A stretch of 22,111 nt of DNA from a virus. Each line of letters starts with the position of its first letter. Positions within the stretch are counted from its first letter, which is position 1. Of this stretch, positions 5,289-22,065 are shown piece by piece. The notes under the pieces were generated by a model. That model saw nothing but the letters and a program-made list of their open reading frames with translations. It was not told the origin of the DNA and searched no databases. The stretch lies in IMG/VR virus record IMGVR_UViG_3300042383_000943, positions 1 through 22,111 of that record. One strand, written 5' to 3'. The position numbers were made by a program, and so were the translations under genes.

Positions 5289-7193
5289 TTATTCTATTTT
5301 GCTGTGATATAATAAAATAGCTGTTTTGTAATCTAACCCATACTCTTCAGCTATTTTATTTATGTCTTCCATGTTTACATTTAATTGTACTGGCTTATTA
5401 ATATACTCATTAATTTTATTCACCCAGTCTTTAGGATTTTCATTTGTAGCTATAGTTTCAGCTATGGTTTGAATAATATCTTTTTGTTCTTGGCTTAATC
5501 TTTTTTTATTATATTTCTCTTTTAAAGATGCCTCTATAGATGAAACTAAATTATCGAATTTAACTAAATTTTTGGCGACTAAATCGGCATTAATTTTTTC
5601 TTTTGAAGCTTTGACTGTTGGAGTTTTTCTTGGTTGCTTCGTCGTCTGTGGAGTTTCTGTAGTTCCAGCTGGTCTACCTGCTGGATTTTCTATTGGAGGC
5701 TTATTTAAAAGTGGTTGATAAAGACCGTCTTCTTGTAGTTTTCTAAAATCTTTTTGAGATTCTATACTTTCTTCTGGCAATGGTAATCTTCCAGTATCTA
5801 TAGCTGTTATACCCTCTTCTGGAGTTAAAACGCCGAGTTCAATTAACCTAGAATAAATACGAGTTAAATTAGCATCACTTTTGAAATCGGCGTCTTTGAA
5901 TCTTGCGACTGGTAAATTTTTAAAACCTAAATTTTTACCGATTTTTTTCATTTCTGGCGTAAGAAAATCATTTATAAAGGTTTCTCTTGCATGTTTTAAA
6001 CGAGATAAAAATACTTCTATTTTAGTATTTGTATTTGCGTATTTTTCTTCACCAAAAAGAACGTTATTTAATCCATAACGAATATCACGATCTACAACCT
6101 CGTATTTTTTAGGATCTAATATATTACTAATTTCTGGAATTATAAATTTAATATCTGTTGTATAATCTGTAACCAAAATACGTCCAACACTTTCATTTTC
6201 AAAAATTTTTCTTAGTGTTCCGATTTGTTCTTTTGTTGGCATACCAACTTCATCATTTCCCATTGTAACCAAAAGGACTGTTTGCTGTATGGTACGACTG
6301 ATTGCCATATCCATATTTTTAAGTTCTTGCTTCCAGTTAATATCTTCGAGAACAGGGAAGCCCATTGGAACGCTGAATGGTTCATAATCTTGTTTTTTAT
6401 AAAAAACTGGCACAAATTTATCTTGATCTAATTCAAATACCATGTATTGATTTGTTGGGGTTATTGAGCTAGTATTTTGTAAATCTTTTAAGTTTTTTAC
6501 TCGTTGTGCAAGTTGTTTATCCTGCTCGTTATCAGGATTTGTTAAAACTTTCATTTCAAAATCATTTAGTACTTTTACATATTGAGGGGTAATAAATGAT
6601 GCAGATCCTATTGCTTGAATATCCGCAGGATTTAAAATAATATATCTAACAGGAATTTCTCCAGTTTTTGCCTCTGTTGTTATAAGATCTGAGAGAACCC
6701 TCATATCTTGTTTGGTAAACTGAGCATTTAATTTATATAAAAATACATTTCCGCTACGGAAAAACTCACGGAAAAACATATCTTGTAACCGCCAAAGATT
6801 TACTCTATCACTCCAGGCTTGGAAGAATTTACGCGATTGCTCGTTACCGCCAGAAAAATAAATTGGAGAACAACTAAATTCTGTCATTAAGTCTATCGTA
6901 TTTCTAAAAATAGAAAAATTATAGTATGCCTTTTGGCAAAGAATAATAGTATCTCTAATACTAATATTAGATGTATATTTTCCATAACCTCCACCATAAA
7001 TAAAAGGAATAACGCCGCCTTCAATATTTATATACTTGTCCGTACGATTTATTGTTGAAGCCCTATTTCTACGAACAGAAGTGTTTACTTCTCCACGGCT
7101 CGCTTTTACTTCTATCGTATCCTTAGCTTTGACAGATCCTTCAATGACCTGTGGCTCTGGAAATTTAATATTTTTATTATTATTACGCGCCAT
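5289..7193 (-). CDS. Portal protein
   Basis: The portal is the dodecameric ring at one capsid vertex through which DNA is pumped and to which the tail attaches. This 634-residue protein lies 42 bases downstream of the large terminase, the usual order in phages. Portal-like features include a basic, disordered N-terminus (1-50). A core follows with YYNFSIFRNTIDLMTEFS at ~90-107, then SGGNEQSRKFFQAW at ~114-127 and FFREFFRSGNVFLYK at ~140-154. The core continues through an alpha/beta wing with 'PVRYIILNPADI' near residue 181 and long helices to about residue 480. A Pro/Thr/Lys-rich linker (~500-535) then leads to a helical C-terminal extension of ~100 residues ending in YGLDYKTAILLYHSKIE. That extension is unusual and could be an attachment or scaffold-contact segment. 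The family call rests on conserved motifs and synteny. Confidence 0.85.
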   Translation of the reverse strand: MARNNNKNIKFPEPQVIEGSVKAKDTIEVKASRGEVNTSVRRNRASTINRTDKYINIEGGVIPFIYGGGYGKYTSNISIRDTIILCQKAYYNFSIFRNTIDLMTEFSCSPIYFSGGNEQSRKFFQAWSDRVNLWRLQDMFFREFFRSGNVFLYKLNAQFTKQDMRVLSDLITTEAKTGEIPVRYIILNPADIQAIGSASFITPQYVKVLNDFEMKVLTNPDNEQDKQLAQRVKNLKDLQNTSSITPTNQYMVFELDQDKFVPVFYKKQDYEPFSVPMGFPVLEDINWKQELKNMDMAISRTIQQTVLLVTMGNDEVGMPTKEQIGTLRKIFENESVGRILVTDYTTDIKFIIPEISNILDPKKYEVVDRDIRYGLNNVLFGEEKYANTNTKIEVFLSRLKHARETFINDFLTPEMKKIGKNLGFKNLPVARFKDADFKSDANLTRIYSRLIELGVLTPEEGITAIDTGRLPLPEESIESQKDFRKLQEDGLYQPLLNKPPIENPAGRPAGTTETPQTTKQPRKTPTVKASKEKINADLVAKNLVKFDNLVSSIEASLKEKYNKKRLSQEQKDIIQTIAETIATNENPKDWVNKINEYINKPVQLNVNMEDINKIAEEYGLDYKTAILLYHSKIE

Positions 7194-7221: not shown

Positions 7222-7242
7222 AATCTGATATTTTATTAGATT
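7222..7242. other. Short inverted repeat at the end of the terminase gene
   Basis: Arms AATCT and AGATT, extended by three more bases with one G-T pair on the plus strand, enclose a loop of about five bases. The element overlaps the terminase stop codon (7238-7236) and is followed on the minus strand by TTTTAG. It could attenuate or partly terminate transcription between terminase and portal, but the stem is AT-rich and short, so chance is a real alternative. Confidence 0.25.
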
Positions 7243-9140
7243 AATTCTGCGACAAACTCTGTATTCTTCTTTGCAAAATTTTCTGGAGCCATTATATCAA
7301 AGTAAGCTTTAACACCCCAGTTTCCTAACATAAGTGTCGTATAGTTATCTTTTCTAGCCCTATTTATACTTGTAGATTTCCTTAAATGAGATGGTAAGTC
7401 AAAACTTTGGGTACCCCTAGATGTTGTGGTTACCTCAACATTTGCACACTGATCTTTTGTATCTTGAACAATGAAATCCTGCTCTTCTATAAATTCGCGG
7501 ACAGTCAATTTTTTTGTTTCATATTCGTTATCTGCCTTTTCGCCAATACCTCTCGGATATATATACTCCATCGGAAGATTCATTGTAAAAATATTTTCTA
7601 AAATATCAGGATGGTTGCTCGCGCGCGAGGCAAACCATATTTTTTTATGATCAATGCAGGTTTGCAGGTAAGAGTTTGCGCGACCCAAAAAGAAACTTGT
7701 AAAATATTGTTTAATACATATATTGCCAAAATCTTTATTATATTGACGCGCACAGTCTTTCAACATCTTTGTATAATCTTCATTTTCTTTATCAGAATCA
7801 AAATCTACAAACCCAACTTTACGATTCATGTCTTTAAAAAATTGAGAATTGTTTACCGCATCTATAAAAGTATCTGCACCAGCATGGTCAATAATGATCA
7901 AGGCAATATTAAAGTTTTTATATAAATAATAGAAATATTTTATATGATCTTGCAACGATGACCCTGCGGCTTGGTATCCATGAACCAGTACGCCCTGTTT
8001 TTTTTCTTCGTCTAGTTCGATTACACTCATGGCAAAATAGTCGGCAACTTTAGAAGACGAAAAGTTAGGGTCAATTGATAAAATATATTTTTTGTCACTA
8101 TCGCCAACTACTTTCGTGGTTGGATACTCTCCATCTGGTATCGTACATTCATGCATTTTTTTAGGTGAAAAATAGCTGTCTCCGCCATCAATAAAACGAG
8201 CACAATATTCACGTAAGAATGAATGGTGTGAGCTTCCGCCACTTTTTGCAACTTGAATAGCGCCTTGATCGACCATATGTTGTGGTAAGGCTTCATAACT
8301 TAATTGGGAAATAAAATATGTCCCAGGAAGCTCGCCCTCTTTAGACTCTTGTTCGTCTGGATGTTCTACCAAATGTGACCATTGTTGATAGACGCGAAAT
8401 AAATGTTCAAAGGTATAACTTGCAGAACTTAAACATAACATTTGAGATGTGTTCTCAAAGATGTGCCTATTATCTGGATGTAATAAGCCCTTTTTTATTA
8501 ATTCTTCTTCTAATTTTCTAATACGAATACGTTCGCCTACATCTCTTGGCGAACTCAAGAATGGGATAAGAACATTGTCAATAATATCTGGGGGTAAAAG
8601 TAAAAACTCGTCCAATATAAGTACGTTAGCACGGATACCACGAATTTTTTCTCCAGTTAGTGGAATAGCTGTGATACTACCCCCATTAATTTGCCATTCG
8701 TATTGGTCATTCCGCTTACTTTTTAAACCAAAACATTGTCGCGCTAAAGCTGCGCCTGGAGACATTAAAAATTTTTCAATTTCATTAAAAACACGACGAC
8801 TAGTACGAAAGTTAATAGATGCAATAAGTATTTTAGTCCCAGGCTCTAACATACATTTAAGAATACAATAGATCGCAGCGCAAAAACTTTTAGCACCACC
8901 ACGGCCCCAAACTAACATACAGTAATTTCTATTAAAAAAAGAATTCAGCGTTAATTCTTGATAAGCTTCTAATGTCAAGCCCATTGATAATTCTGTAGTA
9001 AAACCAAGATTATATCTTAGAAATTTGGCAAGACTCACCCTTGCTTCTTCGTCAGTTAAATCGCCCTTTAAATTAAGTAACTCTTTATTAACGTTAGCTA
9101 GTGGCTTAGATTTTTTCTGATTTCCTACGATGAGTGCCAT
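7236..9140 (-). CDS. terL: Terminase large subunit (DNA-packaging ATPase/nuclease)
   Basis: This is the motor that cuts concatemeric phage DNA and drives it into the prohead through the portal. The 634-residue protein has the two expected domains. In the ATPase domain the Walker A motif is GRGGAKS at 79-85 and the Walker B is VLILDE at 173-178. A coupling motif (LSSAS) lies near 237-241. The C-terminal RNase H-like nuclease domain starts with SIDPNF (Asp357) and continues with IIIDHAG (Asp418); a third acidic ligand is likely further on but I cannot fix it. It is slightly longer than most terminases. The ATG lies inside the end of the ERCC4 nuclease gene, a 16-base overlap, with no Shine-Dalgarno, so translation is probably coupled to that gene. 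The portal gene follows. Confidence 0.93.
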   Translation of the reverse strand: MALIVGNQKKSKPLANVNKELLNLKGDLTDEEARVSLAKFLRYNLGFTTELSMGLTLEAYQELTLNSFFNRNYCMLVWGRGGAKSFCAAIYCILKCMLEPGTKILIASINFRTSRRVFNEIEKFLMSPGAALARQCFGLKSKRNDQYEWQINGGSITAIPLTGEKIRGIRANVLILDEFLLLPPDIIDNVLIPFLSSPRDVGERIRIRKLEEELIKKGLLHPDNRHIFENTSQMLCLSSASYTFEHLFRVYQQWSHLVEHPDEQESKEGELPGTYFISQLSYEALPQHMVDQGAIQVAKSGGSSHHSFLREYCARFIDGGDSYFSPKKMHECTIPDGEYPTTKVVGDSDKKYILSIDPNFSSSKVADYFAMSVIELDEEKKQGVLVHGYQAAGSSLQDHIKYFYYLYKNFNIALIIIDHAGADTFIDAVNNSQFFKDMNRKVGFVDFDSDKENEDYTKMLKDCARQYNKDFGNICIKQYFTSFFLGRANSYLQTCIDHKKIWFASRASNHPDILENIFTMNLPMEYIYPRGIGEKADNEYETKKLTVREFIEEQDFIVQDTKDQCANVEVTTTSRGTQSFDLPSHLRKSTSINRARKDNYTTLMLGNWGVKAYFDIMAPENFAKKNTEFVAELI

Positions 9141-10060
9141 TTTGTATCAAAGTAATATTGCAAATCTATTTTACAGGCCTCTTCATTCATACCTAAAATA
9201 TGAAGTGTTTTATTTTTTGCTTCTTCTCGTCCATCACAAAAAACAAATTGGAGATTATCATATTGACGTAATAATTTTCTCATATTATGGGCGATAAATT
9301 CGCCAGAAGCTTTACCAAATTTTTGTTTTTGATACATCATATTATTAAGAGTTGACTCAACAACTACTACAATATATCCTTCTAATTTTTTAGCTTTTTG
9401 AATTTCACGCTCGAATCTTTCACGTCCACCACTTAAAGTCCCATATAAATCACTTAAGCTTTTACGTTCAACTGCTAATTTATTATTAGGGTGTAACGAA
9501 TAATCCCCATATTCTAATTTGGATTCTATTAAAGTATAGCCCTCAAAATGAAATGGCTTTTGTTCGCGGCTGTCTACAATAATTTGCGGAATAGGAGTCT
9601 CTGGGATTTCTTCTGGAATTTGATAATTAAATCTGGAATACAATCCATGTTTTTGGTATAAATTCTTGTAATCCGTTCCAGAAAAAATCTCCATCGTGCT
9701 AACTGGTAACAAGCAATTAATACTTTGGCATTCAACTTGACCTGGCGCCACATCAATACTTTTTAAGTCACAATATTGCGCTAATTTATTTTTAAAATAA
9801 TCCGCACACTCTTCTTTAGAAAGAGTTTTTAACCAGTTTTTATAGTTTTTCTTATCGATAAAATCACAGGTAATATATTGATCAAAAGATTTGTATTCTA
9901 ACTTTTTACCATCAAAACGATCAATACGCTTCCAGTAAGTTTCAAAATAAGTTTTACAGGAAAGCTTATGGTAATATCTTAAATGTTTTTGAAGTTCAGC
10001 GAAATAATTAAATTCTTCACCACAAACTTTACATTTTAAGTATATTTTGTTCTTATTCAT
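9125..10060 (-). CDS. Zinc-finger / ERCC4-family nuclease
   Basis: This 311-residue protein joins two DNA-binding parts. At the N-terminus a C2H2 finger is formed by Cys10, Cys13, His26 and His31, followed by a basic-aromatic stretch. A middle region (~60-150) is unassigned. The C-terminal ~155 residues carry the ERCC4 (XPF/Mus81) nuclease signature: IVDSREQKPF at 161-170, GDY at 185-187, ERKS at 198-201 and GRERFEREI at 212-220. The acidic and Lys residues that bind the metal in this family (Asp163, Asp186, Glu198, Lys200) are all present, so it should be active. ERCC4 nucleases cut branched or flap DNA near junctions. Overlap with terL by 16 bases suggests a role in resolving recombination or replication branches before packaging, as T4 endonuclease VII does; that role is inference. 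Confidence 0.88.
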   Translation of the reverse strand: MNKNKIYLKCKVCGEEFNYFAELQKHLRYYHKLSCKTYFETYWKRIDRFDGKKLEYKSFDQYITCDFIDKKNYKNWLKTLSKEECADYFKNKLAQYCDLKSIDVAPGQVECQSINCLLPVSTMEIFSGTDYKNLYQKHGLYSRFNYQIPEEIPETPIPQIIVDSREQKPFHFEGYTLIESKLEYGDYSLHPNNKLAVERKSLSDLYGTLSGGRERFEREIQKAKKLEGYIVVVVESTLNNMMYQKQKFGKASGEFIAHNMRKLLRQYDNLQFVFCDGREEAKNKTLHILGMNEEACKIDLQYYFDTKWHSS

Positions 10061-10071
10061 AATATATTATA

Positions 10072-11184
10072 TTAACTATGAACCATTTCATCTATATCAA
10101 TTCCACGAATTATTGCCTTTAGTTCGTCCATGGATGATAAACGTTTTGCTTCGTCTTCTAAATTTTGTTTTTGAGCTTCTGCCAAATGAATAATACTTTT
10201 ACGGCGCTCCTCGTCTTTCCACGCCTGCACTAGATTAAGAATACTAGCGTTTTCTTGTTTACGCTCCTGTATTTTTTTAGATCGATCATCTACAAGTGAT
10301 TTATATAATTTATTTTGTCTATTACGACATTGGTTGTATTCAGTTTGTAAGCTACTAATCGCCTCATTAAGACTCATTTTAATATTGCGCCCCTCGTCTT
10401 CTTCGGAGGCTTGACGTAATAATTGTCGCAAATCTTCAACTTGTTGTAAAATTGTAGAAGCAGTAACAACTTCTGTACACAAGGTAATAAATTGATCTAA
10501 TTCTTCTTGTGTTAAGTCTTCCTTGTCATAAGTGTAACGAATAAAAGCATCCTCAAATAATTTACGATCATCCTCACGACGATAGGTATTAATTTGATAA
10601 CAAAAACTAAAAGTATTCAAATATCTTTGTAGCATCTCAACTTGTTTAATCTGCATAGCTTTTAATTTCTTATCTTCCCATCCCAAATTAAGATATTTAT
10701 TAATTCTATATAAGGTTTGATCCATACGGCGCGGTGGAAAATATTCTCCAATATGACTTTGTACCGGAGCCTCTGATTCTTTCGGTACATAAGTCGTCAT
10801 ATCTAAATATGTAGGATCAGCCTTTTGGAGTTTGTTAACATATTTGTTGACTTCGCGTGATTCGAGACTTAAATGGGTCAAATTATTATTTTTAAATAAG
10901 ATTTTTGCCATATCAAGATAGTGCTGATTTTTATAATTATTTTTTATAAACTCTTCTTGATCGTTAGTTAGTGAAATACGATCTCTTTGAAATACTGAAC
11001 GATTTTTATATTCAATATTATTATCTAGTAAATATTTTTTTAGTATTCGACCTTCTTTACTGCGACTATCTATGCTTTCATTGTTATAAGTATAAGCAGT
11101 AATTTCAGTAAGAGTAGCTTCGGGATTTTTTTGTAAAAACTCCGTTAACCTATTTTTTTGCTCTAAAGTAAGAATATCATCCAT
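10072..11184 (-). CDS. Helical HTH-like protein, candidate small terminase subunit
   Basis: The family of this 370-residue protein is not recognised. The N-terminal ~130 residues look like helix-turn-helix segments: LTLEQKNRLTEFLQ near residue 5 and LTNDQEEFIKNNY near 72, followed by short helices and a LSLESREVNKYV segment. The remaining ~240 residues are strongly helical and charged, with coiled-coil character (~245-355). A DNA-binding N-terminus and an oligomerising helical body, just upstream of the nuclease and the large terminase, fit a small terminase subunit. The length is about twice that usual for the family, so a packaging regulator or a transcription factor is also possible. Its ATG overlaps the last base of the sigma-like gene's stop codon, and it has one of the few clear Shine-Dalgarno sequences (AGGGAG, 8 bases upstream). 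Confidence 0.7.
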   Translation of the reverse strand: MDDILTLEQKNRLTEFLQKNPEATLTEITAYTYNNESIDSRSKEGRILKKYLLDNNIEYKNRSVFQRDRISLTNDQEEFIKNNYKNQHYLDMAKILFKNNNLTHLSLESREVNKYVNKLQKADPTYLDMTTYVPKESEAPVQSHIGEYFPPRRMDQTLYRINKYLNLGWEDKKLKAMQIKQVEMLQRYLNTFSFCYQINTYRREDDRKLFEDAFIRYTYDKEDLTQEELDQFITLCTEVVTASTILQQVEDLRQLLRQASEEDEGRNIKMSLNEAISSLQTEYNQCRNRQNKLYKSLVDDRSKKIQERKQENASILNLVQAWKDEERRKSIIHLAEAQKQNLEDEAKRLSSMDELKAIIRGIDIDEMVHS

Positions 11185-11894
11185 TATAAAATCTCCCTTA
11201 CAACTTCTCGCGCTTTTTGTAAAATTTTAGATTTAATTTTTCCTATTTGCCTATAAGCTGGTCGCCCCTCTTTTAAACTTAATTTATAGCCCATCTTTTT
11301 TGCTACATCCGTTTCTTCCAGATGCTGAAGGAACATGTAGTCATACACTTTCCATTCAATGGTGCTTAAATTTTTTTTCATAAGGTCATGAAAAATAGGC
11401 ATTAAATTTTCTATATCCATAGAATTTTCTGTATCATGTAAAACGTTTTCCAAAGTTGTTTCTGGATTATCATGATTTGGGCTGTGAATACTTAAAGGAA
11501 ATTTAACATCATATGCCGATTTTTTACTTTTTTCCCATTTTGAATAATCCTTACAAGAATTGTTTTGTGACCCATAGATAGAACAACCATACTCCCCAGT
11601 ATTAAAAGGGCATTTTAAACAAGGGCGTGAAAAATTGGAATAATGATTCCTTAACATATTTGTCATCTGATGATTAATGACTTGGTTTAACCAAGGGCGC
11701 ATAGGTCGCGTAGGATCCCATTTATCCCATTTTTTATAAATATGTATACGCAATCTTTGAGCTACATCTTCAAAATCCATCCATGCTATAGCAGTTAAAT
11801 GCCAACGATGTTTACGTTTTTGGATTTCGGAATTGATAATTTCTATCGATTCTTCAAAAGAAGGTCTAACAATGCCTTTTTTCTTTCGTGGCAT
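11184..11894 (-). CDS. RNA polymerase sigma-70-like factor with four-cysteine cluster
   Basis: This 236-residue protein probably directs host RNA polymerase to phage late promoters. Residues ~36-85 (WMDFEDVAQRLRIHIYKKW ... PWLNQVINHQMTNMLRNHY) match sigma region 2, which binds the polymerase and the -10 element. Residues ~177-235 resemble region 4 (LSTIEWKVYDYMFLQ, then TDVAKKMGY and a basic helix), although the middle of that region (KLSLKEGRPAYRQIGKIKSKIL) is atypical. Between them lie Cys92, Cys95, Cys104 and Cys114, spaced CxxC-x8-C-x9-C, which looks like a metal-binding site inserted in the linker. T4 gp55 is the functional model for a phage late sigma; direct homology is not claimed. 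The gene follows the zinc-ribbon gene after 6 bases and overlaps the next start by one base. Confidence 0.8.
   Translation of the reverse strand: MPRKKKGIVRPSFEESIEIINSEIQKRKHRWHLTAIAWMDFEDVAQRLRIHIYKKWDKWDPTRPMRPWLNQVINHQMTNMLRNHYSNFSRPCLKCPFNTGEYGCSIYGSQNNSCKDYSKWEKSKKSAYDVKFPLSIHSPNHDNPETTLENVLHDTENSMDIENLMPIFHDLMKKNLSTIEWKVYDYMFLQHLEETDVAKKMGYKLSLKEGRPAYRQIGKIKSKILQKAREVVREIL
11193..11198 (-). promoter_or_regulatory. Shine-Dalgarno sequence for the 10072-11184 gene
   Basis: On the minus strand AGGGAG lies 8 bases before the ATG at 11184, inside the last codons of the sigma-like gene. It stands out because most starts in this window lack such a site, and it supports the overlapping start. 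Confidence 0.65.
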
Positions 11895-12371: not shown

Positions 12372-12391
12372 GGTAGGTGTAATTACTATTG

Positions 12392-12979
12392 ATGTCGTTT
12401 TTAATCAACTCAGATGTATATAGTATAATTAAAGAGGACCTAGAAGAGCTTGACGGTAAATTAATTTTTGTAAAAGGCCGTTACTGTGGTGGCAAAAATA
12501 AATGTTCTGGACTTTTTTATTTAAACTCTCAAGATAATCCTGTAATTAAAGTTGCCAAAGGTGGTTTAAAAGACGAGGAGTGGTTCGGAGTTCTTATTCA
12601 TGAATATTGCCATTTTATTCAATGGCGCGATAATTCTAAACACTGGGACCAATTCTCTAATTATGATGTTACATACTCCCAGATTCTTTCAAAACCAGAA
12701 AAATATAAGGCAGCTTTAACAGTATTAATAGAACTAGAAATTAACTGCGAAAAATGTGCGGTTAAAATAATTAAAAATAATAATCTTTTTGACTATAAAA
12801 AATACGCACAAAGCGCCAACGCTATATTATATAAATACGCTTTTCTTTATAAATTTAATAAATGGCCAGAAGACGATAGAAAATATCAAGAAATCCAATC
12901 CGAAGCACCGAATAGAATATTAAAATCTTATAAAGAGTATTTAAATATCCCCCAAAAAATTATTGATTATTATAAATAA
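12392..12979 (+). CDS. Zincin-type metallopeptidase-like protein
   Basis: Starting at the ATG this encodes 195 residues; a TTG three bases earlier (12389) is the alternative start, and the weak AGGTG at ~12375 does not decide between them. The catalytic signature HEYCH (HExxH) is at residues 70-74, in the context WFGVLIHEYCHFIQW. About 40 residues later ELEINCEKCAVK offers a Glu as third zinc ligand, the pattern of gluzincins such as the ImmA/IrrE-type peptidases. The N-terminal half holds a small Gly/Cys segment (CGGKNKCSG), perhaps part of a beta sheet. It is one of few plus-strand genes among minus-strand late genes, and its stop abuts the PhoH stop with no gap. Its substrate is unknown; a role in host-regulator cleavage or head maturation would be guesswork. 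Confidence 0.8.
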   Translation: MSFLINSDVYSIIKEDLEELDGKLIFVKGRYCGGKNKCSGLFYLNSQDNPVIKVAKGGLKDEEWFGVLIHEYCHFIQWRDNSKHWDQFSNYDVTYSQILSKPEKYKAALTVLIELEINCEKCAVKIIKNNNLFDYKKYAQSANAILYKYAFLYKFNKWPEDDRKYQEIQSEAPNRILKSYKEYLNIPQKIIDYYK

Positions 12980-13705
12980 TTATTTTTTAATGTTTTCGAA
13001 CTGTTCGATTATATAAGACAAAATTTCAGATCTTACAATATCTTCTTTCCCAAACTCGAAAGTATAAATACCTCGTTCTTTAGCGCAATCTTTATCAAAT
13101 AAATCAAACACTTTATTAAATCCGCTTTGCTTAATATCTGATTGTTGAGCGTCCCCACAAATAAATAGGGTGGAAAAATTTGCCATACGTGTCATTACTA
13201 GTAAAAAGTCTTCAATACGACAATTCTGCGCTTCATCCATAATAAAACTCGCATTTGATATGTTTAGACCTCTTAAAAACCCTAACGGAACACCAACTAT
13301 TCTTTCATCCATCATAAGAGCCTTAACATGCGGAATGGGTAGTAACTCATTTAATTTATCAACTAATGGTTGTGTATATGGAGACATTTTTTCTTCAGAT
13401 GTCCCCTTAATATAACCAATTCCGTGAACAGAGGCCTCAACTGGAACTCTACTATAATATATTTCGCTAGACTTTTTATCTTTTATTTTTTTTAAGGCGC
13501 AGTAAACTGCTAAGATCGTTTTTGCCGTACCAGCTACACCTTTCACTATTACAACTTTAGTATTTTTATCTAAAGCTAGGTTTATAAACTCTTTTTGTTT
13601 ATCTGTCCATGGTAGTTCACGAATGCTTAAGTCTATGGTTGTTTTTGTTTTTTTCTTCTCCGTGTATGGAGAAACATCACGAGGGGTTTCTTTTTTTTGT
13701 TTCAT
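12980..13705 (-). CDS. phoH: PhoH-like P-loop ATPase
   Basis: This 241-residue protein matches the PhoH family of P-loop ATPases, which are widespread in aquatic phages. The Walker A motif is GVAGTAKT at 56-63 and the Walker B is SFIMDE at 153-158, followed by AQN. The characteristic stretch of RVPVEA (86-91), GYIKGTSEEKMSPY (97-110), GFLRG (142-146) and FICGDAQQSDI is present. The first ~25 residues are a basic, flexible tail. In bacteria the family is linked to phosphate starvation and to RNA metabolism, and its role in phages is unresolved. The gene is transcribed toward the metallopeptidase gene, and the two stop codons abut. It is divergent from hsp20 across 105 bases. No Shine-Dalgarno is seen. 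Confidence 0.93.
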   Translation of the reverse strand: MKQKKETPRDVSPYTEKKKTKTTIDLSIRELPWTDKQKEFINLALDKNTKVVIVKGVAGTAKTILAVYCALKKIKDKKSSEIYYSRVPVEASVHGIGYIKGTSEEKMSPYTQPLVDKLNELLPIPHVKALMMDERIVGVPLGFLRGLNISNASFIMDEAQNCRIEDFLLVMTRMANFSTLFICGDAQQSDIKQSGFNKVFDLFDKDCAKERGIYTFEFGKEDIVRSEILSYIIEQFENIKK

Positions 13706-13810: not shown

Positions 13811-14218
13811 ATGAATATTAATGCAAGTCTCGTACCAAAAAATTACAGTGGGTCTAATACATGGGAATTTATGGAATTAATTGATCAGAGTTGGCCGAAA
13901 TGGTCAACAATGTTTGATGTTGTTACAAGTCCGTCATATAGTTTCTCAAATATGGTAGGATTTAAAGAGTCTAATAAAGATTCCTATAATTTAGAAATCG
14001 AATTACCGCGTTTTCGTAAAGAAAATATTAAACTTTCTGCCGAAAATAATGTTTTGCATATTAGCGCCGAACAAGATAACCTTAAATTTTATCATTCAGT
14101 AAGCATTCCTTTAACTTTAGACACTAACACAATTGAAGCTAAACTTGATCATGGCGTACTCTCTCTTTCTGCTCAGAAAGCAGAGCAGGCTAAAAATAAG
14201 ACAATTCAAATTAAATAA
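13811..14218 (+). CDS. hsp20: Small heat-shock protein (Hsp20/alpha-crystallin)
   Basis: This 135-residue protein is a small chaperone that holds unfolded proteins in an ATP-independent way. The N-terminal arm (~1-45) is variable and has several Trp residues. The alpha-crystallin domain (~48-121) is clear: YNLEIELPRFRKENIKLSAE, then VLHISAEQ, and the family signature AKLDHGVL at 110-117. The C-terminal IQI (132-134) is the IxI motif that docks neighbouring subunits in the oligomer. Hsp20 genes with this layout are common in T4-like cyanophages and other aquatic phages, where help in folding or assembly of virion proteins has been proposed. It is divergent from phoH and followed after 40 bases by a glycosyltransferase gene. 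Confidence 0.93.
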   Translation: MNINASLVPKNYSGSNTWEFMELIDQSWPKWSTMFDVVTSPSYSFSNMVGFKESNKDSYNLEIELPRFRKENIKLSAENNVLHISAEQDNLKFYHSVSIPLTLDTNTIEAKLDHGVLSLSAQKAEQAKNKTIQIK

Positions 14219-14236
14219 AACTTTACATATAATAAA

Positions 14237-14260
14237 ATTATCGTTATAATAAACGATAAT
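14237..14260 (+). promoter_or_regulatory. Perfect hairpin overlapping the start codon of the 14259 gene
   Basis: Arms ATTATCGTT (14237-14245) and AACGATAAT (14252-14260) pair perfectly over 9 bases around a 6-base loop (ATAATA). The right arm includes the first two bases of the ATG at 14259. As RNA it would hide the start codon; as DNA it could be an operator. It also lies right after hsp20, but it has no trailing T run, so it is not a typical terminator. Confidence 0.5.
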
Positions 14261-15296
14261 GAAAAATATATACTTTTTTCATTGGCCCTCGCATCTAGGT
14301 GGGGCTGATACTAGATTAAAAGATCTAATAGAATTATTTGCTGAATCTAAAAAATATAACCTTTTTTGTATTCCTAATGATAACTTCCGATTAGAGGAAG
14401 AAAATATTGTAAATTTTTTAGAAAAAAATAATGTAAAGATTTTAACATGGGAAACATTACCAGAAAAAACAGATGGTTATGCTATAGCCTTTTGTAATTT
14501 TAGACTTTTCCAAGAAAGTCAAATGCTAGAAAAAATTCGTAATATCGGATTAAAATTTATATGGTCTAATGACATGATGTGGTCTTCACAGGAAGAGGTT
14601 AACGCTATTGAAAAAAATTTAGTTTCAGCAGTAATCTTTACTAGCAATTTTCATCAAAATCATTTAACAAAAATAAACCCCTTCTTTAAGAAGGTTCATA
14701 ATTATATTATTCCTAATTATTTTCATTCAGAAAATTATATAAAAACAAATAAAAAGCAACATCTTCTTGATAAATTTGTAATAGGAAAATTATCTAGAGC
14801 TGAATGGACTAAATATAGCGAGAATTTTCCATTATTTTATAAAAATATAAAAATACCAAATGCCCATTTTAGATTTATGGGTTGGGACGAAAAATTAAAT
14901 AAAAAATATTCATGGTTTGAATTTGGAGATAGTTTTGAACTATTGAAGGAAAAATCAGAAACAATTTTAGATTTTTTATCTCAATTAGACTTATACGTAT
15001 TTACTTGTCACCACAATTATATAGAAAATCAATCAAGATCAATTATTGAGGCACAATTAATGGGGGTACCATGTATAGTCCCAAATGAAGGTAATTTTCC
15101 AAATATGGTATGGCATGAAAGAAGTGGGTTTGTATATAAAAATATAGAAGAATGTTATGAATACATTTCCGAATTATATAATAATAAAAATTTGTTGAAA
15201 ATGTTTCAGCATAATTGTCAGAAAATAACCAAATTAATTTGGTCTGATAAAAAATCACAATTAGATTCCTGGGAAAATTTATTTAATTTATTATGA
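14259..15296 (+). CDS. Glycosyltransferase, GT-B fold (GT4-like)
   Basis: This 345-residue protein is a probable retaining GT4-type enzyme with two Rossmann-like halves. The N-terminus opens with IYFFHWPSHLGGADTRLKDL, the Gly-rich loop that contacts the acceptor. The nucleotide-sugar half shows an EX7E motif (Glu256 to Glu264, ENQSRSIIE), followed by AQLMGVPCIVPN and GNFPNMVWHERSGFVY, typical of the donor-binding region. It has no signal peptide or membrane helix, so it acts in the host cytoplasm. The stop overlaps the start of the next gene by 4 bases (ATGA), so both are probably co-translated. The donor sugar is not predictable. Substrates could be the phage fibres or a host surface glycan. 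The ATG is embedded in a hairpin and has no Shine-Dalgarno. Confidence 0.85.
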   Translation: MKNIYFFHWPSHLGGADTRLKDLIELFAESKKYNLFCIPNDNFRLEEENIVNFLEKNNVKILTWETLPEKTDGYAIAFCNFRLFQESQMLEKIRNIGLKFIWSNDMMWSSQEEVNAIEKNLVSAVIFTSNFHQNHLTKINPFFKKVHNYIIPNYFHSENYIKTNKKQHLLDKFVIGKLSRAEWTKYSENFPLFYKNIKIPNAHFRFMGWDEKLNKKYSWFEFGDSFELLKEKSETILDFLSQLDLYVFTCHHNYIENQSRSIIEAQLMGVPCIVPNEGNFPNMVWHERSGFVYKNIEECYEYISELYNNKNLLKMFQHNCQKITKLIWSDKKSQLDSWENLFNLL

Positions 15297-18263: not shown

Positions 18264-19961
18264 TTAGTTTAATCTTGTTATATAAACTCTTGGGCTTGTA
18301 CTATCTTCAGTAGAAGGGTAAGGATTGTTTATGCTTGGATTTAATTGAACAGCATAGAAACCTGCACTTGCAACATCAATTATAGCAGAGTTTGACCAAG
18401 CTTTTTCAGCGCTTTCTGTGCCGCTTTGACCATTAAGAACTTCTCTTCCTAATAAAGTTACTAAAGTTAAAGCTCCATTATTGGTAGAAGATGATGCTAT
18501 TTTTATTTTAAATTGACAGTTACTATGCGCATCATAAGTTTGATAAAATACCGTTATTAAATAGTCGCCAGCAACTTTAATATTAATTCTATTATTATCT
18601 ATATCAAATGTATTAGTATCTGTATTAAATACGGTACTTGTAAGCGGCATTGTTGTATCAGTATTATTTGAGACATTGGTTAAACTTGAGTCCCATGCAA
18701 AACATGCTGATGCATTAGTGACTCCAGGACCTGTCGCTCCAGTTGCACCCTGTGATCCAGCTGTTCCTGTCGCGCCAGTTGCTCCCGCGCTACCAGTTTC
18801 ACCTGTAGCTCCAGTCGCACCATTTGCGCCAGCTGTTCCTGTCGCGCCAGTTGCTCCCGCGCTACCAGTTTCACCTGTAGCTCCAGTCGCACCATTTGCG
18901 CCAGCAGTTCCTGTCGCGCCAGTTGCTCCAGCGCTACCAGTATTACCAGTTGCGCCTGTTAAGCCCGTAGCTCCTTGGGGGCCAGGTGCGCCTGATAAAC
19001 TTATTGCCCAAGAAGTATATGGCCCACCAGATCCAGTTATAGAAGTTACATTTACAACAAGAGTTGTTCCAGAATAACTAGTTACTGTACCTTCCATTTT
19101 ATTGGAAGCATCATAAGCTATTATAACTACTTGCCCAATGCTAAGTGCTAAACCGCTATCTACTGTAAACGTTTTAGATCCAGTTCCAATAGATTCGCTA
19201 GTAGTTGATGTTGTAGTGTATTTATCTCCAGATAATCCAGAAGCGCCCGTCGCTCCAGTTGCACCATTATTTCCAGCAGGGCCAGTTGCTCCAGTTGCAC
19301 CATTACTTCCAGCGGGGCCAGTTGTTCCAGTTGCACCATTACTTCCAGCGGGGCCAGTTGCTCCTGTCGAACCATCTACTCCAGCAGGACCTGTAGCTCC
19401 TGTAGAACCATTACTTCCAGCAGGGCCTGTAGCTCCTTGTGGACCAGTTGCTCCCAAAGCCCCACCTCCAGCAATCACAGTTCCTTGTGGCAATACAACT
19501 GAATTACCACTAGAACTAATAGAAGCTTGTCCTAAATAAAGTGTTCCACTTGCTAGATAAAGGTCTTTAAATGGTTTATCAATAGTTCCTAAATCATAAG
19601 TACCGCTTGTTGATGGAATAATATTTTGAGCAAGTCCACTTAAGTCATTTGCAGAAATTAGTCCATGATTATTTAATGTTGGTCTTACTCTAAAGTTCCA
19701 GGTTCCACTAACAGTTCCAGTCCCCTCTATAAATTGAACATCAGCGCCAGAAAAAATAAAGCTATCAGCTAGAAAAGTTTTTTCGCCACTGATAACTTGG
19801 TCACCAGTTGCGTAAAAAAGTCCTGTAGGGATTGGACCTGTTGCGCCTGTAATCCCAATGCCTTGTGGGCCAGTAGCGCCCAATGGGCCTGTTGCCCCAA
19901 CTGGCCCAGTCGCGCCACTTGGTCCTGTTTGTAATGGATAAATTTCTGATAGTAATGCCAT
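18264..19961 (-). CDS. Collagen-like tail fibre protein with C1q-like end (565 aa)
   Basis: This modular fibre alternates Gly-X-Y rods with beta domains. A first collagen-like segment covers residues ~13-45. The cassette [16 protein letters not shown] (~48-63) follows, then FIFSGADV and a [10 protein letters not shown] repeat piece. A long collagen-like rod spans ~166-240, with five 12-residue units ([12 protein letters not shown] type). Next, ~244-323 is a beta module ([20 protein letters not shown] ... [21 protein letters not shown]) of a kind seen in many phage fibres. A third rod (~324-413) has two exact copies of a 24-residue unit. The C-terminus (~417-565) is a C1q/TNF-like jelly roll ([21 protein letters not shown], closing with PRVYITRLN). 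Probably trimeric and host-binding. It is followed by the 73-residue partner. Confidence 0.85.
18760..18946. repeat. 72-bp tandem repeat in a collagen-like rod
   Basis: Two identical 72-base units (18760-18831 and 18832-18903) encode the same 24 Gly-X-Y residues ([20 protein letters not shown] then ATGT). A third, partly diverged unit follows to about 18946. Exact identity between units, including silent positions, points to recent duplication or gene conversion. Confidence 0.85.
19261..19440. repeat. Five 36-bp tandem repeats in a collagen-like rod
   Basis: Units start at 19261, 19297, 19333, 19369 and 19405 and each encode 12 residues of the [12 protein letters not shown] type. They differ by a few substitutions, so they are older than the exact 72-base copies in the same gene. 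Confidence 0.8.
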
Positions 19962-19980: not shown

Positions 19981-22065
19981 TTATGCTAATTTTGTTATTA
20001 TAATTTCTGGGGGCCCCGAATTTCCAAGGCTGGCCATATTTAAAGTATCGTCATCAGATGGAAAAGGATTAACATCTGGATTAAAATCAGTACCATTATG
20101 ATTTATATCAAGCCAAACTTGTGTATTTGACTGAGTAACATGAAGAATTGCATTTCCATGTAAGATACGGTCTATAAAATTCTCACTAACGCCTCCACCG
20201 CCACTTCTAAAATCAACAATTGGTTGCACTAAACTATCTGTAGGACCATCTTTCTTCCAAAGTCTTACAATAAGATTTAAACCTTCTGGAAGATCATATA
20301 AATGGATATTCGCATCAATTTTATAATATCCAGGTTTCTTAATTGTTAAATATTGTGTAGAACGATTTCCTGGATTTGTAATAGGGCCAAATGTTTCCGT
20401 ATCTGTATTTATAATCTGATGATTAAATGGAATACGATTTAAATTTAATAAATTTGCATAACCTCCTGTTTCATCACTAGACCATACAGCTTTATAAAGT
20501 TTAATTGTAGGATAAGTTAATCCGTTCCATGGAACAAATTTCCAGCCAACGGTTGAATCAGTATAAATGAGTGAGAACGTTCCTGATACATCGCAAGTTA
20601 AATTTTCTGCCGTGCTATCGATATTAGCGCCGTTGCGAGCGATAATTAAATTATTACCATTATTTTTATTAAAGGTAATATTTACAAATGATCCTACGGC
20701 TGGAGAACTTGGAAGTGTTGCGGTAATTGCTCCTGCAGAAGAATTAAATATATACCCCTCATTAGAGGTTAATGTTTGGCTTGTTGTAATTTCTGTATAA
20801 TTAAAATCAGATCCGCTAGCCCCAGTTGGGCCTTGTACACCTGTTGCTCCTGTAGCTCCAGACCCTGTTGCCCCTGTAGCTCCATCATTACCAGATAATC
20901 CGGTTGCGCCAGTTGATCCTGTCGCCCCTGTAGCGCCAGAACCTGTCGCGCCAGTTGCACCTTGTGTTCCAGTATTACCAGTCGCACCAGTTGCGCCTTG
21001 TTCTCCAGTGTTTCCAGTTGCTCCAGTCGCACCTTGTGCTCCAGTATTACCAGTTGCTCCAGTTGCGCCTTGTTCTCCAGTGTTTCCAGTCGCACCAGTT
21101 GCGCCTTGTTCTCCAGTATTACCAGTTGCTCCAGTTGCGCCTTGTAAACCTGTATTACCTGTCGCGCCTTGTAAACCAGAAGGGCCTGTCGCACCAGTTG
21201 CGCCTTGTGAACCTGCAGTTGCTTCTCCGCTTAATAATACTCCCGTACCATTTATCATTGGACGGCTGTTAAATTGTGAAAAACCGCTTACGCGTAAATT
21301 ATTATTTGTTAAAATAACATCTGCGCCAGAAAAAATATAACTGTCTGCATAAAAAGTCTTTGATCCACTAATAACTTGCTGACCAGTAACATATACAACA
21401 TTATTAGGAATTGGCCCTGTTGAACCAATTTGTCCAGTAGCACCAGTTGAACCCTGCCCACCTATTGGTCCAGTAGCTCCCGTGGCACCACCTGGATCCC
21501 CTTGAAGACCTGTCGCGCCAGTTTGTCCAGCTGGGCCAGTAGCACCAGTAGCTCCAGAGCCCGTAGCGCCAGTTAACCCTGTCGCACCTTGAGATCCCGT
21601 TAGTCCAGTCGAACCAGTGGCTCCAGTTGAGCCTACACCCGTAGCGCCAGTTAACCCTGTCGCACCTTGAGATCCCGTTAGTCCAGTCGAACCAGTGGCT
21701 CCAGTAGCACCTATGCCCCCTGCGATTCCAGTTGATCCAGTTGGACCTTGAGAGCCAGTTGCGCCAGTAGATCCCGTTAAGCCAGTAAACCCAGTTGGTC
21801 CAGATAATCCTGTCGCTCCAGTCGCTCCAGTAATTTGACCTACTACATCCCAACTATTTCCATCCCAAATGTATAATTGACCATTTTGTTCAACAATATA
21901 AGCATCTCCTATAGAGTTTCCGCTATTAGGTAAATTAGATACTAATGGAACGCTACCCTTAATTACAATTCCTGGTCCTGGGGTCCCCTGTGGTCCAGTA
22001 GCTCCAGTTGCCCCTGGCTCGCCTTGTGCTCCACGTTCTTCTATAATAATTGGTATTTCGCTCAT
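19981..22065 (-). CDS. Large collagen-like tail fibre protein with C1q-like end (694 aa)
   Basis: This is the largest fibre protein in the window. After a short acidic start and a few Gly-X-Y triplets (12-31), a small domain (~32-78, [34 protein letters not shown]) resembles the N-terminal beta module common in phage fibres. A rod (~80-219) follows, then the cassette [16 protein letters not shown] near 221-236, FIFSGADV, and [15 protein letters not shown] (~266-280). A second rod (~281-416) contains six 12-residue units of [12 protein letters not shown] type. A beta domain (~418-515, [19 protein letters not shown] ... GWKFVPW) is shared with the 404-residue fibre. The end (~515-694) is C1q-like ([15 protein letters not shown], closing with PEIIITKLA). 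AAGGA lies 9 bases before the ATG. Fibre block B is transcribed from here toward the 565-residue gene, with a 19-base gap. Confidence 0.87.
20957..21172. repeat. Six 36-bp tandem repeats in a collagen-like rod
   Basis: Units start at 20957, 20993, 21029, 21065, 21101 and 21137. Each encodes a 12-residue [12 protein letters not shown] unit in which the residue before Gln varies (Leu, Glu, Ala, Thr). The regular period could allow rod length to change by slippage or recombination. Confidence 0.82.
21560..21705. repeat. 68-bp direct repeat, 78-bp spacing, in the large fibre gene
   Basis: Two identical 68-base segments (21560-21627 and 21638-21705) are separated by 10 bases. They encode the same Gly-X-Y block ([18 protein letters not shown]). 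The identity at silent positions suggests a recent duplication. Confidence 0.8.

Follow-up and report, generated by a model that had tools for sequence, protein, structure and literature searches.

Most of what is known about XPF-type nucleases comes from repair in archaea and eukaryotes. One of them, Hef, serves Haloferax as an alternative resolvase of junctions (PMC7776575), and viral ERCC4 genes described elsewhere are found in replication or repair settings (PMC10535572, PMC10160649). Two packaging-related nucleases of other folds provide further points of comparison. Endonuclease VII of T4 (gp49) frees branched DNA on which packaging has arrested (PMC9958956), and its gene, 49, does not adjoin terL. 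HNH nucleases of the HK97 gp74 type, named for a protein of a cos phage, are separate nucleases tied to the terminase machinery (PMC9410871).

We analyzed a viral fragment of 22,111 bp, the complete IMG/VR record IMGVR_UViG_3300042383_000943 (hereafter the window). Its packaging genes include one for a zinc-finger protein with an ERCC4 nuclease domain, which overlaps the start of terL (Table 1). The protein has the ERCC4 domain, the GD...ERKxxxD active site, and the fold in common with XPF, MUS81, and Hef, but it is without their HhH2 or helicase domains, carries an N-terminal C2H2 finger and a helical module, and is encoded beside terL. Tailed viruses of haloarchaea encode ERCC4 proteins of the same family (PHROG_3490, e.g., HRTV-27 gp75), with ~24–46% identity over the nuclease domain; gp75, however, has 145 aa and no counterpart of the N-terminal half, and no terL is annotated in the stretch read around it. 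The nearest named TerL proteins, those of SPbeta, Slash-like, and MaeS phages, belong to the same broad family as that of the window (23–36% identity), but the gene that precedes terL in those phages has no ERCC4 similarity. In a large group of uncultivated environmental phages, an XPF-type nuclease is tied to the packaging block. No description of a link between ERCC4 or XPF and a terminase locus was found in the open-access literature (most subscription papers fell outside the scope of this search), and the linkage is apparently new to the literature. Because the window is a fragment, questions concerning whole genomes were put to its relatives.

Table 1. Features of the packaging block in the window, with the main evidence for each.
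Feature	Position	Strand	Evidence or remark
Probable portal protein	5289..7193	(-)	Weak PHROG portal match (E 0.003), position, synteny in relatives
terL (large terminase subunit), itself with a nuclease domain	7236..9140	(-)	PHROG_2, 3e-23
Overlap of nuclease stop and terL start, 16 nt	9125..9140	(-)	Overlap in 73/98 distinct relative pairs
Zinc-finger ERCC4 nuclease gene, 311 aa	9125..10060	(-)	Pfam ERCC4, PHROG_3490, AlphaFold2 model
ERCC4 nuclease domain, residues 159–290	9191..9586	(-)	Structural match to XPF and Hef
Motif ERKxxxD, residues 198–204	9449..9469	(-)	E198, R199, K200, D204 invariant (37 diverse relatives)
Motif GDY, residues 185–187	9500..9508	(-)	D186, Y187 invariant, G185 almost so (37 diverse relatives)
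Motif IVDSREQ, residues 161–167	9560..9580	(-)	D163, R165, E166 invariant (37 diverse relatives)
Helical middle domain, residues 36–145	9626..9955	(-)	Conservation, all-helical model, HNH_repeat in 2/37 relatives
C2H2 zinc finger, residues 10–31 (C10, C13, H26, H31)	9968..10033	(-)	zf-C2H2 below cut-off; kept in relatives
370-aa helical protein, HTH-like N-terminal helices, long coiled coil	10072..11184	(-)	AlphaFold2 pLDDT 80.4
Sigma-70-like protein, upstream end of block	11184..11894	(-)	Sigma70_r2, 8.4e-07; syntenic in relatives

Domain architecture of the nuclease

The ERCC4 domain lies far above chance level, with E=6.2e-10 and 39.6 bits against Pfam ERCC4 PF02732 (cut-off 24) and E=1.2e-17 against PHROG_3490, “ERCC4-type nuclease.” The first-pass annotation, made from the letters of the window, had given the position, strand, and length of the gene and its overlap with terL exactly as in Table 1, and it had also recognized the complete ERCC4 signature, whose third motif reads ERKSLSD in this protein. 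The AlphaFold2 model has a pLDDT of 92.4. Its nuclease domain (residues ~156–295) superimposes on archaeal XPF (2bgw; Z 12.7, rmsd 2.5, 126 aligned) and on Hef (1j22; TMt 0.73), and as modeled the protein carries the XPF/Hef nuclease fold. Pfam ERCC4 matched all 37 diverse relatives (E up to 0.1). The active-site pattern was unbroken in all 160 locus entries checked, a count that includes some contigs fetched twice, and none had suffered the active-site loss that the first-pass annotation named as counting against its reading. Neither the window protein nor the 37 relatives had an HhH match in Pfam, the C-terminal HhH2 of canonical XPF, MUS81, and Hef being absent; the ~20 residues that follow the nuclease domain form one short helix in the model. 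Searches of Pfam and PHROG gave no match to an HNH catalytic domain in the 311-aa protein, whose nuclease domain is ERCC4.

The C2H2 finger proposed in the first pass is present, with all four of its ligand positions. In the window protein alone it scores 21.9 bits against zf-C2H2, under the curated Pfam cut-off of 25.2, and it gains support from the family: zf-C2H2_4 matched 28 of 37 members, the family profile matched many solved C2H2 finger structures, and the pattern is kept in 105 of 113 distinct relatives (lost or altered in the other 8). Between the finger and the nuclease domain lies a middle domain that is all-helical in the AlphaFold2 model. Conservation is similar in the finger (0.59), the middle domain (0.56), and the nuclease domain (0.62), and is 0.26 in the linker. 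HNH_repeat (PF18780), a repeat associated with homing endonucleases, matched 2 of the 37 relatives, with a best E of 0.0023; as the alignment scan reported no position for it, it is our reading of the sequence pattern that places the match in the middle domain. This domain is a possible DNA-recognition module, and together with the finger it suggests that the N-terminal half recognizes DNA.

Linkage to terL across relatives

Relatives were gathered by separate nuclease and TerL searches of IMG/VR, and the full-length nucleases in the loci fetched are ~33–94% identical to that of the window. A profile search with the nuclease matched at least 582 viral stretches; among the relatives on viral contigs that were fetched from it, terL follows the nuclease immediately in nearly all, with TerL identity falling to ~35%. 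The first search with TerL recovered the nuclease in 73 of 73 readable loci, seven further loci starting after the gene. The second, which used a distant TerL as seed, gave 77 new loci, of which 74 gave an HMM match to the nuclease and two are cut short; the remaining one (L272) has an ORF resembling the C-terminus of ERCC4 and, after it, a GIY-YIG-like ORF. Both TerL-only searches therefore found the nuclease in every locus with readable upstream sequence; the loci kept were the best matches of each scan, and the absence of exceptions holds for these rather than for all phages. Wherever enough sequence is available, the fetched loci have the same block, in the order sigma-like gene, 370-aa gene, ERCC4, terL, and portal. 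In L159 (8128–10930) the order is changed to terL, ERCC4, and portal, and the link is kept. The linkage between ERCC4 and terL is real and conserved, as is the terL neighborhood on which the first-pass reading had been made to depend.

Within the block, TerL has three acidic residues that are invariant in the TerL alignment (Asp348, Asp409, and Asp589 in first-row numbering), which we read as its probable nuclease triad. The 370-aa protein is a candidate small terminase by its position. Profile and fold searches gave it no TerS match; viral matches in the fold search of its model were not significant, and the other matches were simply helical or coiled-coil. We also compared single sequences with hhalign, a weak test, and obtained no match of the nuclease to SPbeta YonG, Staley_32, or the MaeS gene before terL, or of the 370-aa protein to YonG or Staley_32. 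Two relatives (L157:7830–10958 and L194:3237–6440) have a single terL ORF of >1,000 aa with an intein-like, in-frame insertion near the P-loop.

The nuclease is under strong purifying selection, with dN/dS of ~0.07–0.11 against close relatives (0.003–0.02 for terL). Distances between nucleases follow those between the adjacent terL genes (Mantel test, Spearman 0.78; 0 of 1000 permutations as high). In one relative (L031:2098–3030) the nuclease is 84% identical to that of the window, with differences scattered along the protein, while the adjacent terL and 370-aa gene are 99% and 97% identical. A tree of nuclease domains places the TerL-linked sequences apart from cellular and haloviral ones, with the exception of O_L237, a very long row that is possibly mis-framed. 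From these sequences, a single origin of the TerL-linked nucleases is compatible with the tree but not shown by it. Locus L252 (2884–4199), where a stand-alone 162-aa ERCC4 gene and a separate 92-aa HNH gene lie near a distant terL, differs in that its ERCC4 clusters with the cellular sequences, on a long branch.

These data bear on whether the gene is a selfish homing-type endonuclease that happens to reside beside terL. Two observations speak for this: a weak HNH_repeat similarity, and the homing-type genes that some relatives, such as L157 (HNH-like) and L272 (GIY-YIG-like), carry as insertions in this region. Those neighbors are patchy, however, while the nuclease is not: it is present in all readable TerL-found loci, where no empty sites were seen, its distances track those of terL, and it is maintained by purifying selection. 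We consider it highly improbable that the gene is a homing-type endonuclease.

Gene overlap and ribosome binding sites

The first-pass annotation described terL as having no ribosome binding site of its own and as translationally coupled to the nuclease. In the window terL indeed has no Shine-Dalgarno (SD) sequence, but its absence says little because ~90% of genes are without one, including those for the portal and the nuclease. SD-like motifs precede 9–14% of genes in these genomes, vs. 4–7% of random sites, and several members of one sub-clade (L087–L104) have a clear AGGAGGG before terL; we therefore rejected the argument from SD absence. Nor is the overlap particular to this gene pair, as it is equally common in sigma/370-aa pairs (67/92 distinct pairs, vs. 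73/98 for nuclease and terL). The genes form a compact block, and a special coupling of nuclease and TerL beyond this compactness is not shown.

A passage of PMC6847099 describes Bacteroidota as naturally without SD sequences, and the contig that carries one relative (L220) was binned to a Flavobacteriales MAG. On the strength of these two observations, our guess is that the host belongs to Bacteroidota.

Replication genes and resolvase searches in large relatives

Two large relatives, G002 (178,478 bp) and G003 (166,536 bp), have identical terminal overlaps of 127 and 96 bp, respectively, and the gene order of G003 wraps round that of G002. Both are classed as linear and appear to be circularly complete, although the overlap of G002 is weaker evidence of circularity because it is also found nearby as a repeat. 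G002 encodes a DNA polymerase (nearest named relatives DnaE-like), a primase, a UvsX-like recombinase, a DnaB-like helicase, and a PD-(D/E)XK nuclease. An AAA+ protein common to all four large genomes compared (L114:10436–11374) aligns over its full length with RuvB (PDB, 4.1e-13) and scores above cut-off for Pfam RuvB_N and RuvB_C; PHROGs labels it a clamp loader.

The replication genes of these phages form a cluster apart from the terL block, which speaks against a general replication-fork or repair nuclease, or a degrader of host DNA, that is merely sited among structural genes, as does the persistence of the nuclease beside terL even in the reordered L159. Such an activity would agree with the ERCC4 genes of other phages and archaeal viruses, which lie among replication or unassigned genes (PMC10535572, PMC10160649), and with the work of Hef at stalled forks (PMC7776575). 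On balance we find a general role improbable.

The first-pass annotation further proposed that the nuclease replaces a resolvase, and named a known resolvase elsewhere in the genome as evidence to the contrary. No RuvC, EndoVII, RusA, T7 EndoI, Hjc, or NinG was detected above Pfam cut-off in the relatives searched, G002 and G003 included, and models of these families had no match in the window record. The EndoVII model finds T4 and the EndoI model finds T7; Pox_A22, a model with no positive control, had no match. Three candidates were rejected. A RuvC match in G008/G009 (E 0.015, below cut-off) appears by its position to fall in the structural gene cluster and was treated as chance; the G002 gene judged to be its counterpart has no Pfam match. 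An EndoVII match in G013 is below cut-off and has two internal stops, and a RuvC in G018, from a bacterial MAG (contig 10), was taken as probably the bacterium’s own.

Beside the replication genes, G002 and G003 share a conserved protein of 137 aa (L119:7882–8295) that PHROGs labels an HNH or homing endonuclease and that has a weak, sub-cut-off match to Pfam DUF559; a PDB search gave no match. This candidate nuclease could be an alternative resolvase. The replacement proposal is accordingly weakened: known families went undetected, as it predicted, but it rests on that absence. With no known resolvase family detected, these genomes offer the ERCC4 protein as a candidate resolvase.

Proposed role in DNA packaging

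The position of the gene at terL suggests an enzyme that trims or cuts viral DNA during packing. Judged from its sequence and model, its likeliest role is that of a packaging-linked, structure-selective endonuclease that would clear branches ahead of the motor, to which we assign a probability of roughly 0.45. The ERCC4 domain would cut branched DNA (flap, fork, or four-way), the finger and helical module would aid binding to DNA or to the motor, and encoding in one block with TerL and portal would supply the enzyme together with them. Removal of branches from a recombining concatemer would then allow the motor to run, and the job of T4 endonuclease VII, the branch clearing for packaging that we propose the two share (PMC9958956), would be filled by an unrelated fold. 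We infer the branched substrate, the action at the motor, the co-expression, and the resolvase role. We favor debranching because of the structure-selective fold, the packaging block, the recombination genes, and the lack of a known resolvase family; the UvsX-like recombinase and RuvB-like AAA+ protein of the relatives point to recombining concatemers as likely, and the apparently circular maps are compatible with permuted, headful-packed DNA. Against it, the finger and helical module suit DNA recognition and are unneeded for debranching, the HhH2 of XPF is missing, the 137-aa protein could be the resolvase, resolvases of further families may exist, and the window genome is a fragment. The debranching role put forward in the first pass thus remains the leading one, shorn of its coupling argument and with one close rival.

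That rival is an accessory terminase endonuclease comparable to HK97 gp74, which would read a site through the finger and helical module and make or stimulate the cut at the start or end of packaging. It follows closely because the N-terminal half resembles a DNA-recognition unit, HhH2 is missing, and an HNH precedent exists: gp74, of HNH rather than ERCC4 fold, promotes cos cleavage in vitro (PMC9410871). The gene also has terL on one side and a possible small-terminase gene on the other, the middle domain has HNH_repeat similarity, the finger is conserved, and HNH genes occur near terL elsewhere (Staley_30; L252). TerL, however, keeps its own conserved acidic residues, and the apparently circular maps are more in keeping with permuted, headful ends than with a cos site. 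In addition, 8 of 113 relatives have lost or altered the finger pattern, and the 370-aa protein is a small-terminase candidate by position only. We regard this function as possible but doubtful. The zinc-finger ERCC4 protein could also be a third, integral terminase subunit in a large uncultivated phage lineage, using the finger and helical module to read the packaging site and both resolving branches and making or licensing the initiating cut. This is unlikely; if true, an XPF-type enzyme would be the basis of a packaging system.

If the proposed role is correct, yet another fold has supplied the branch-clearing or end-making nuclease of packaging, and the stand-alone ERCC4 of L252 would hint at a second recruitment.

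Other genes of the window

PhoH-like (12980–13705), Hsp20-like (13811–14218), and glycosyltransferase (14259–15296) genes adjoin the packaging block. A 196-aa ORF at 12389–12979 (+), possibly a zinc metalloprotease, contains the motif HEYCH and matches SprT-like weakly (E 0.036). Two long ORFs (18264–19961 and 19981–22065) with collagen-like Gly-X-Y (GATG) repeats probably encode fibre proteins.
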